Made by a program: the position numbers and the translations under genes. From Bacteroidales bacterium (lineage in GTDB: Bacteria > Bacteroidota > Bacteroidia > Bacteroidales > UBA10428), in NCBI GenBank assembly GCA_016926235.1, contig JAFGOZ010000354.1:1-15502 (forward strand): DNA of 15,502 nucleotides. Reading direction: 5' to 3'. Below, piece after piece: positions 2,245-5,064 of the stretch (position 1 is its first letter; every line of letters begins with the position of its first letter). Below the pieces are notes generated by a model. That model was not told the origin of the DNA. It worked only from the letters and a program-made list of their open reading frames with translations, and did no database searches.

Positions 2245-2279
2245 AAAAAGCCTCACAATCAAAAGATTTGAGGCTTTTT
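2245..2279 (-). terminator. Terminator of the tRNA-Gly / tRNA-Leu transcript
   Basis: The 11-nt arms 2245-2255 and 2269-2279 (AAAAAGCCTCA / TGAGGCTTTTT) are perfectly complementary. On the minus strand the stem ends in a run of T, immediately after the 3' end of tRNA-Leu. This is a classical intrinsic terminator. Confidence 0.85.
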
Positions 2280-2281
2280 CG

Positions 2282-2366
2282 TACCCGGGGCGGGACTTGA
2301 ACCCGCACAACCGTAATGGTCACAGGATTTTAAGTCCTGCGCGTCTACCAGTTCCGCCACCCGGGC
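2282..2366 (-). tRNA. tRNA-Leu (anticodon TAA)
   Basis: This 85-nt class II tRNA reads from 2366 down to 2282. The acceptor is GCCCGGG paired with CCCGGGT (one G.U pair), with discriminator A. The D arm is GGCGGAACTGGTAGACGC. The anticodon stem-loop GGACTTAAAATCC places TAA in the loop. A long variable arm follows, as expected for Leu. The T arm is GCGGGTTCAAGTCCCGC. CCA is not encoded. It lies downstream of tRNA-Gly and the S23-type gene in one probable transcript that ends at 2245. Its 3' side borders the AT-rich accessory flank. Confidence 0.95.
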
Positions 2367-2375
2367 GTATATTTT

Positions 2376-2383
2376 AATGAGCG
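2376..2383. repeat. 8-bp direct repeat, copy 1 (possible target duplication)
   Basis: AATGAGCG occurs here and again at 2814-2821, just outside the two inverted-repeat arms. The right copy includes the discriminator and last three acceptor bases of tRNA-Gly (minus strand CGCTCATT). The arrangement fits a target-site duplication made when the S23 unit inserted, but 8 bp could be chance. Confidence 0.45.
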
Positions 2384-2410
2384 ATTTTTGATTTGATGAA
2401 TTATTGATTT
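2383..2410. repeat. Left arm of the inverted repeat framing the S23-type gene
   Basis: This 28-nt arm begins GATTTTTGATTT and matches the reverse complement of 2776-2803 at 25 of 28 positions. It contains the stop codon of the four-helix-bundle gene (TAA on the minus strand, 2401-2403). Together the arms could form a long AU-rich stem in the RNA with the gene in the loop. Confidence 0.75.
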
Positions 2411-2763
2411 TTCAGTCTTGATTTTACTGTCTTTCTTGAAGAGGAAAAGATTTTGACTAATTCTTCTGATTCTTTTAACAGCTGTTTGCTTAATTCACAA
2501 ACGCAAATCTTAGATTCTGTTAATACTTCAAGCCAAAAAGAACTTTCATCTATTTCTTCTACCACGATGCATATTTTTGAATAAAATTCTGCATCTGATC
2601 TGGCTCTGCAAGCTGCCCTATAGTTAGCTCCAGAAGAGGATGATGATCGTAATAATTGTTTTCCAATTATTCTGGCTTCATCTGTTTTTGGCAAAGTTTG
2701 AAAGAACCTTATTATTTCCAGCACAAAACGTTTTGTTCTATCCTGTAACTGTTTTGCATACAT
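2401..2763 (-). CDS. Four-helix-bundle protein of the S23 / 23S rRNA intervening-sequence family
   Basis: This encodes a 120-residue, all-helical protein of the four-helix-bundle family (TIGR02436, S23), first seen in intervening sequences of 23S rRNA and also found as an accessory protein of diversity-generating retroelements. Family marks are the N-terminal helix (LQDRTKRFVLEIIRFFQTLP), the conserved turn GKQLLRSSSSSGANYRAACRARSDAEFYSKI (about residues 35-65), the EEIDESSFWLEVL helix (about 69-81) and the ESEELVKIFSSS helix near the C-terminus. The length is normal. It sits between tRNA-Gly and tRNA-Leu in the same orientation, with inverted repeats at its ends, and no reverse transcriptase is nearby. 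The biochemical role of free-standing members is unknown; RNA or nucleic-acid binding is suspected. Confidence 0.85.
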   Translation of the reverse strand: MYAKQLQDRTKRFVLEIIRFFQTLPKTDEARIIGKQLLRSSSSSGANYRAACRARSDAEFYSKICIVVEEIDESSFWLEVLTESKICVCELSKQLLKESEELVKIFSSSRKTVKSRLKNQ

Positions 2764-2775
2764 AAATAGATGCTT

Positions 2776-2803
2776 AAATCAATAAATCAATAAATCAAAA
2801 ATC
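2776..2803. repeat. Right arm of the inverted repeat framing the S23-type gene
   Basis: This 28-nt arm, made of AAATCAAT-type units, pairs with 2383-2410 at 25 of 28 positions. It lies in the leader of the four-helix-bundle gene, 13 nt from its ATG and 15 nt from the 3' end of tRNA-Gly. The short AAATCAAT reiteration is low in complexity, so part of the match could come from that. Confidence 0.7.
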
Positions 2804-2817
2804 AACAAATAAAAATG

Positions 2818-2890
<73 letters not shown>

Positions 2891-3990: not shown

Positions 3991-4614
3991 ATGAAAACAA
4001 TTTTTGTACTTGTTTTATGTACTTTATGGGGAGTATTATCCGCTCAGGAAATACTATCAGATGAGATCTTTCAGAAATGGGATAAAGTAACTATAGAAAA
4101 AGCAAATACCGGTAAAGATTCTTCATTTTTAACTGATCCAGAAAAGGAAGTAATACTGCTATGCAACCTTGCCCGAATGAATGGGAAGCTTTTTACTGAA
4201 ACTTTTGTAAAGAAATATATTGGTGATGAGGTGCATACAAATGATAACATAACATCATTAATCTCCGATTTGAAGAACCAGACTCCCATGGAACCTCTTT
4301 ATGTGTCAAAAGTATTATATGAAGCTGCCCTTGAACATGCCAAGGAATCAGGAGAAAATGGCACAACCGGGCATGATAATTTTGGCGGCAGGTATTACAA
4401 TGCCAATAAGATTTTTGATATGGTTGGCGAAAATTGTGATTATGGTAATCAGTACTCACTGAATATAGTGATGTCATTGCTGATTGACGAAGGAGTGCCC
4501 AGTCTGGGTCATCGGATAAATATTTTAAGAGATCGCTATACACACATAGGTGTTTCTATACAACCTCACAAGACTTATAGATATAATTGTGTAATGGGTT
4601 TTGGGGGTGAATGA
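3991..4614 (+). CDS. Secreted CAP-domain (SCP/PR1-like) protein
   Basis: I place the start at ATG 3991; a TTG twelve bases upstream would overlap the previous stop and spoil the signal peptide. The protein has 207 residues. Residues 1-19 (MKTIFVLVLCTLWGVLSAQ) are a typical signal peptide ending in SAQ. The rest is a CAP domain: LEHAKESG with the first His, GHDNF (about 120), GENCDYGN, GHRINILRDRYTHIGVS (CAP motif 2 like), and the C-terminal YNCVMGFGGE. The His and Glu residues expected in the CAP cavity are present. Bacterial CAP proteins are extracytoplasmic and mostly of unknown function. It probably forms an operon with the bestrophin-like gene upstream. Confidence 0.85.
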   Translation: MKTIFVLVLCTLWGVLSAQEILSDEIFQKWDKVTIEKANTGKDSSFLTDPEKEVILLCNLARMNGKLFTETFVKKYIGDEVHTNDNITSLISDLKNQTPMEPLYVSKVLYEAALEHAKESGENGTTGHDNFGGRYYNANKIFDMVGENCDYGNQYSLNIVMSLLIDEGVPSLGHRINILRDRYTHIGVSIQPHKTYRYNCVMGFGGE

Positions 4615-4622
4615 TTTTTCAC

Positions 4623-4653
4623 TTTGAATTCTCTTAAAAAAATAGTAAATTAC
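4623..4653 (+). promoter_or_regulatory. Weak candidate promoter before the 102-aa gene
   Basis: TTTG at 4623-4626 and TAAATTAC at 4646-4653 are 19 nt apart, the expected spacing. The -7 box departs from TAnnTTTG at its last two bases. The ATG at 4681 follows. Confidence 0.3.
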
Positions 4654-4680
4654 ATATCAGGTAGTATAAAAACTTGAGAC

Positions 4681-4989
4681 ATGAAGGATATTTTAATTTC
4701 AAAGGAGAGAGTAAAGGATTTTCTTGCAGAAAGACTGACGTTTAATGTGTTGCAGGAAAATGAGGATAATCTGTATATGATTATTCGTAATGAGGGTCTT
4801 GGAGGTTTCAATAAGATGAGTGACCAGGAATTGTATGAAAATCTATTGATGGCAATTCCTGAATTTCAATTAATCACCCTGATAAGGGGAGATAGTACAA
4901 ATCTTATAGCTCAGGTTAAGCCGGAATATAAAGATACTGAAGAGGATATTTTAATAGATATACACCGTATTATCCAGATGAAGCTTTAG
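4681..4989 (+). CDS. Hypothetical protein, 102 aa
   Basis: This is a small soluble acidic protein with no signal peptide. It starts MKDILISKERVKDFLAERL and has a predicted helix, a sheet-forming middle (NLYMIIRNEG), a helix (MSDQELYENLLMAIPEF), a strand pair (QLITLIRGDSTNLIAQVKP) and a C-terminal helix (EEDILIDIHRIIQMKL). The alternating alpha/beta pattern suggests a compact domain, but I do not recognise the family. It lies 66 nt after the CAP gene and 75 nt before another small gene, all on the same strand, and shares their downstream terminator. Confidence 0.55.
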   Translation: MKDILISKERVKDFLAERLTFNVLQENEDNLYMIIRNEGLGGFNKMSDQELYENLLMAIPEFQLITLIRGDSTNLIAQVKPEYKDTEEDILIDIHRIIQMKL

Positions 4990-5064
4990 TCAAATATTTG
5001 AAACATTCATGAGACTATAGCGTTAATGAAATTATAAATACTTGTTTAACACTAATGATGGGAT

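Follow-up and report, generated by a model that had tools for sequence, protein, structure and literature searches.

An S23-family gene between tRNA-Gly and tRNA-Leu in a Bacteroidales bacterium, framed by inverted short-word arrays like those at many other S23 loci

The 15,502-nt stretch of Bacteroidales DNA analysed here, which we call the window, contains a small gene lodged between two tRNA genes, the order along the minus strand being tRNA-Gly(GCC), S23, tRNA-Leu(UAA) and a terminator-like hairpin (Table 1). An initial annotation, made from the letters alone, had placed an S23 gene between these two tRNAs, and this is confirmed by ARAGORN and Rfam for the tRNAs and by the PF05635 and TIGR02436 profiles for the gene. 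The encoded protein scores above the curated cut-offs of both profiles (PF05635, E 1.5e-12 and 48.1 bits, cut-off 33.8; TIGR02436, E 7.5e-22 and 77.6 bits, cut-off 24) and so belongs to the S23 / four-helix-bundle family, the solved chain nearest to it by sequence being 2rld (E 6.3e-15; five chains, one entry). As the tRNAs and S23 lie on one strand and a terminator-like hairpin follows tRNA-Leu, they are probably co-transcribed as a single unit; the hairpin (2245-2279) is absent from the terminator scan, its loop of 13 nt being longer than the maximum of 8 allowed there. Domain scanning of 18 of the 27 ORFs listed in the window revealed ordinary chromosomal families or no match among these neighbours, and no integrase, transposase or reverse-transcriptase (RT) domain.

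Table 1. Features of the tRNA-Gly/S23/tRNA-Leu locus, in window coordinates
Feature	Position	Strand	Basis and remarks
Terminator-like hairpin (11-bp perfect stem, T run) after tRNA-Leu, closing the tRNA-Gly/S23/tRNA-Leu unit	2245..2279	-	Inverted-repeat search
tRNA-Leu(UAA), downstream tRNA	2281..2366	-	ARAGORN, Rfam agrees
Direct repeat AATGAGCG, copy adjoining tRNA-Leu	2376..2383		Repeat search; without counterpart in L022
3' (right) inverted arm, overlapping the S23 stop codon	2383..2410	-	Repeat search; pairs with the 5' arm in the predicted fold
S23 / four-helix-bundle gene, 120 aa	2401..2763	-	ORF call, profile matches
5' (left) inverted arm, array in which the 8-mer TTGATTTA recurs with variants	2775..2813	-	Period-8 core 2775-2801
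Direct repeat AATGAGCG, copy over the tRNA-Gly 3' end	2814..2821		Repeat search
tRNA-Gly(GCC), upstream tRNA	2817..2890	-	ARAGORN, Rfam agrees

The two arms that frame the gene match in inverted orientation at 25 of 28 positions (2383-2410/2776-2803), as first read, and the repeat search also returns a longer inverted pair (2372-2410/2776-2814) at 79%. The array in the 5' arm (2775-2801) is the sole 7/8-nt array that a period scan finds in the whole window, and the 3' arm, which covers the last codons of the ORF together with its stop codon, is an imperfect mirror of it. The gapped inverted score of the arms is 41, compared with a mean of 24.7 (sd 4.1) in dinucleotide shuffles of the two flanks, and as only 4 of 4000 shuffles equalled it, AT-richness does not explain the arms. 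In the predicted RNA fold of 2370-2822 (z -3.5) the ends pair around the ORF, which agrees with the initial proposal that a repeat stem would hold the gene in a loop. Complementary ends enclosing an S23 ORF are a mark of the intervening sequences (IVS) of rRNA genes, and the window has them; another mark, insertion inside a 16S or 23S rRNA gene, is not found, Rfam giving no rRNA family match in the window. The 8-bp direct repeat noticed at the outset is likewise present just outside the arms, its right copy on the 3' end of tRNA-Gly; by a post hoc figure, 8 nt or more are shared by 0.5% of random pairs of window stretches of equal lengths. Removing the 438-nt unit would leave the tRNAs 12 nt apart, a spacing as close as had been supposed if not exactly the estimated 14 nt or so.

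Palindromic sequence also occurs on either side of this locus. Upstream of tRNA-Gly, at 2929-2990, a tRNA-Gly-like fragment is split by the palindrome CCGCCAGCTGGCGG and has words of 9-14 nt in common with the real gene; it may be a degenerate tRNA gene copy that carries an insert. On the downstream side of the tRNA-Leu terminator, at 2137-2240, lie palindromic, GC-richer repeats, one 12-nt word of which recurs at 2946-2957 with one change.

Inverted arms are a widespread property of S23 loci. In 83 units, the mean inverted score of a unit's own pair of flanks was 36.6, as against 19.4 for cross-locus pairs, and 15 of the 83 lay above the 99th percentile of the cross pairs. When 84 S23 loci were set against 191 control ORFs, taken from the same loci at a distance of at least 400 nt from any S23 unit, an inverted flank score of 30 or more was reached by 63% of the former and 3% of the latter, and one of 40 or more by 42% and 2%; the inverted score exceeded the direct score in 70 of the 84 loci, a set whose effective number is smaller because it includes recurring orthologous sites of Pedobacter and Mucilaginibacter that are not fully independent. 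The other 37% of these loci scored below 30. In this set-up the window itself reached an inverted score of only 24 (direct 27), a level attained by 5.8% of the controls, because its right arm overlaps the end of the ORF; the fair test for the window includes the overlap and gives 41 inverted and 8 direct. Repetition at 7 or 8 nt was detected (at the 0.7 level) on both flanks of 38% of S23 loci and 1% of controls, and on either flank of 73% and 15%, an upstream array being present at 14 of the 191 control ORFs. This excess is confined to 7 and 8 nt: of the remaining lags between 4 and 12, none is passed by more than 3% of flanks, and upstream the figure at lags 5/10 is 0%. Arrays were detectable on both sides in 23 of 139 loci, 14 of them 7/7, nine 8/8 and none mixed. 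Array length, with medians of 5.1 and 4.8 units, would match a pentameric protein, a correspondence on which we do not rely, as the medians vary with the detection threshold. The inverted-arm signal comes from loci titled Bacteroidetes, Acidobacteria, Chloroflexi, Planctomycetota, Verrucomicrobia and candidate phyla; such units occur in many phyla, and where the arrays are clear both word and period are matched on the two sides.

The words themselves are mostly specific to each locus. To take host composition out of the comparison, S23 copies were compared within three genomes (12 regions of 14 matches in G406, all 15 in G005 and all 10 in G006), whose highest within-genome S23 identities are 74%, 87% and 57%, respectively. 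By eye, copies within a genome mostly carry different words, the close copies L281/L284 and L294/L295 being alike. The mean score of a copy's own arms against that of arms crossed between loci was 25.9 to 16.3 in G406, 24.5 to 15.7 in G005 and 33.1 to 16.2 in G006, an advantage that none of 20000 permutations matched in any of the three, and an arm's own partner was its best partner in 6/12, 9/15 and 8/10 cases.

In Mucilaginibacter, where an S23 unit occupies one orthologous site, 19 orthologs of more than 100 aa gave a mean of 46.9 for their own arms and 38.7 for crossed arms (p 5e-5; direct score 18.0), so both arms change together. The S23 gene at this site is under purifying selection; the three closest pairs give dN/dS values of 0.155, 0.063 and 0.025, and other pairs are near saturation. 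Twelve of the Mucilaginibacter loci that we viewed are without an intact S23; three of these have a right-side array over threshold, most others have two to four similar words, and L269 has, by eye, kept a piece of S23. Units may have been lost leaving their arrays, or the arrays may precede S23. Ten Pedobacter orthologs showed no arm co-change (32.0 vs 30.9, p 0.27) and hardly any inverted excess over direct (32.0 vs 30.7), which counts against the generality of arm co-change. Turnover is visible at one Pedobacter site, as S23 carries a stop in L014 and is absent from L259, where the flanks are ~95% identical and another palindromic element stands in its place; that element leaves the exact boundary missing, and L259 was rejected as a clean empty site. 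The gene that follows begins like murG. Palindromic elements of the form GTCATTGCGAGGAA...CTCGCAATGAC, and similar ones, are found at this site in the S23-less L259, L260 and L263-L265, and the Pedobacter spacer seems to attract hairpin-forming elements.

A second case of the window's arrangement was found among the best 80 S23 loci of a contig scan. In this locus, L022, from a metagenome-assembled genome titled Chlorobiota (G001), an S23 gene 56% identical to that of the window is flanked by the same pair of tRNAs, ordered as they are in the window; its arms are built, by eye, of another word (ATTGAACT/ATTGAATT), its ends also pair in the predicted RNA fold (z -3.0) and the 8-bp direct repeat is absent. 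A tree of S23 proteins gave p-AU 0.42 for a clade of the window, P0002 and L022, a value that neither favours nor excludes such a grouping. G001 is alone among 393 genomes of the order in matching the whole region at 1e-38 or better, and among its 99 relatives the matches listed to the window region run through the tRNAs in all except G001. We took 45 loci from relatives, 30 fetched automatically and 15 picked for nearby tRNAs; the Gly(GCC)-Leu(UAA) pair is present in 40, with a spacer of at most 40 nt in 25 of these, and S23 profiles matched only in L111, which is the L022 site. In G046, whose M16 peptidase comes closest to that of the window among 295 class members (59%), the spacer measures 16 nt and has neither an array nor S23. 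The initial annotation had predicted an empty site with one copy of the direct repeat, and closely spaced S23-less pairs do exist, as would be expected for a transposable element, in relatives that are distant (M16 peptidase 59% at best) and do not fix exact boundaries; a single copy of AATGAGCG (CGCTCATT on the tRNA strand) occurs in none of their spacers viewed. The M16 peptidases of G046 and G001 are 61% alike and that of the window is less similar to either (58.5% and 56.2%). From this distribution the gene and both arms look to have been gained together into a short tRNA spacer. A search of plasmids for distant DNA similarity matched at tRNA-like stretches, covering at most 19% of the query among the matches listed. 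Elsewhere in L022, at 4580-5000, tRNA-Leu-like copies are interrupted by a palindrome-rich stretch, and a similar stretch lies in the tRNA-Gly/tRNA-Leu spacer of L123; this is perhaps a further kind of small element, one that inserts into tRNA genes.

We think it probable that the window carries an S23 unit, consisting of a four-helix-bundle gene and two opposite arrays of 7- or 8-nt words, that was gained into an existing tRNA-Gly/tRNA-Leu spacer and is one of a widespread class whose best-known representatives are the rRNA IVS. Gene and arms would arrive together in the spacer, and the unit would be transcribed with the tRNAs, the modelled fold placing the S23 ORF in a loop whose stem, by analogy with IVS, RNase III could cleave in a way that spares the tRNAs. 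The arms would be kept alike mainly at the DNA level, through slippage within an array and through a template switch in which pairing of the inverted arrays lets one arm be copied from the other. Binding of an S23 oligomer to its own array is a putative and the most speculative step.

It is possible, if rather unlikely, that selection on an RNA stem instead maintains the complementarity of the arms, the stem being an RNase III substrate whose cleavage would free the tRNAs and either discard or express the S23 mRNA. The predicted folds of the window and L022, which close the ORF in a loop, the co-change of arms in Mucilaginibacter and the IVS precedent (PMC4990558) all speak for this explanation. 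So do the neighbouring genes. In 57 of 79 S23 triples, against 119 of 208 background triples, the genes on both sides run in the same direction (p 0.02; taken by itself, the downstream side gives a non-significant p 0.28), a pattern that fits the favoured unit as well, being compatible with S23 units residing inside transcripts. In stems under RNA selection G·U is usually tolerated much more readily than A·C. Yet the 342 transition mismatches found in the arms of 102 of 159 loci have no G·U bias, with 178 compatible and 164 incompatible (p 0.48) in a test that had no positive control and that out-of-register alignment of repeats may blur. Selection on the RNA stem as the sole cause is thus not supported, and homogenisation at the DNA level is favoured over it; processing of the RNA by RNase III would then be a consequence of arms homogenised as DNA.

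The same arms could be the termini of a transposable unit, autonomous or mobilised in trans, with AATGAGCG as a target-site duplication at the tRNA-Gly 3' end, and a self-contained mobile unit is what the initial annotation had envisaged. The window has the direct repeat at the right places (the chance figure of 0.5% being post hoc), relatives have short spacers without S23, and two copies in unrelated places of G005 share 81% identity across 435 nt, a homology that starts with the array and goes no further than the stop codon; in this pair the left array of one copy matches the right array of the other, inverted, at 26 of 28 positions. By such limits of homology the S23 unit, array included, has been duplicated in G005, but recent mobility is unproven. 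No separate copies more than 90% identical were found within one genome among 147 loci compared, a set complete for G005 and G006, partly sampled for other genomes and inclusive of plasmid S23 loci, in which the pairs at 100% come from a single stretch represented by overlapping pieces. As a sign of movement the direct repeat did not hold up either, since L022 is without it and 67 S23 loci have no excess of direct repeats next to their arms (the mean is 3.94, compared with 4.10 in cross pairs, and none reaches 7 or more where 1.07 were expected to), so that target-site duplication is rejected as a feature of the class. The scan of 18 window ORFs likewise gave no domain of an integrase, transposase or RT, and we regard a transposable unit of this kind as decidedly unlikely. 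That an ordinary S23 gene came by chance to lie between tRNAs amid meaningless AT-rich intergenic repeats is scarcely credible, for although S23 genes are numerous (3-15 matches per genome in 12 genomes) and the spacer is AT-rich, the shuffle test, the arm statistics over S23 loci in general and the window's array being the only one that the period scan found in it all speak against this.

The unit that we favour has much in common with the IVS of 23S rRNA (PMC4990558), namely an S23 ORF, a length near 430 nt, ends that are complementary over ~28 bp, tandem repeats of short words just before the ORF and a host RNA operon on the same strand; it differs in having a tRNA spacer as its host and an 8-mer array in its 5' arm that is mirrored by the 3' arm. 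In the IVS described in that paper, GACAGAT heptamers precede the S23 ORF in copy numbers that differ between strains, and a 28-bp terminal stem is cleaved by RNase III. The S23 protein is presented there as having no known function and viewed as expendable, whereas in Mucilaginibacter it is under purifying selection. An IVS-like element with a tRNA operon as its home had been suggested for the window. The IVS-like S23 unit outside rRNA stands, but the tRNA home proved to be a special case: over 159 units, many with only ~500 nt of flank, a scan for tRNAs recovered L022 at the same place as the window and a position directly between tRNAs in G001 only (L022 and L319). The S23-family gene of L319 is diverged, has tRNA-Ser(gct) and tRNA-Pro(tgg) on its two sides, all on one strand, and is without clear arrays.

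Avd, the accessory protein of diversity-generating retroelements, is a four-helix bundle of a fold family common with S23. An Avd gene is recognised by an adjacent RT and by template/variable repeats; the RT was not found here, there being no such domain in the 18 window ORFs scanned. Tandem 7-nt words are also known from marine Beggiatoaceae, where intergenic TAACTGA repeats lie, in many cases, just upstream of genes (PMC4679880); as reported there these are almost exclusively direct repeats, unlike the inverted matched pairs around S23 genes, and the main text of that paper contains neither 'S23' nor 'four helix'. PMC5041132, a paper on 16S IVS in which 'S23' is a figure number, was set aside as not relevant. 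Among the open-access papers listed in our searches we found none that describes inverted heptamer arrays as a general companion of S23 genes, and one may be in print elsewhere.

S23 genes are very common small genes, with at least 7980 of 7996 scored candidates passing in one search, and matched, mostly locus-specific inverted arrays would bring the S23 protein into one testable frame with the IVS of rRNA and with orphan heptamer arrays. A bolder extension, which we think doubtful, is that an S23 ring, by binding the 7/8-nt word of its own unit, drives the fold-back copying of one array into the other arm, that rRNA IVS are the rRNA subset of such units and that many orphan heptamer arrays are footprints of lost ones. 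Were S23 and array paired in this way, each unit would drift to its own word and yet remain a mirror image. The arrays offer a natural assay, in the co-change of arms in close strains and in the binding of S23 to its own word as opposed to that of another copy. Among the plasmid loci, the Planktothrix L192-L194 have S23 between a helicase gene (drmD in two of the three) and a long gene annotated as MmeI, PglX or hypothetical; all three genes are co-directional, and the plasmid regions are 97-99% identical.
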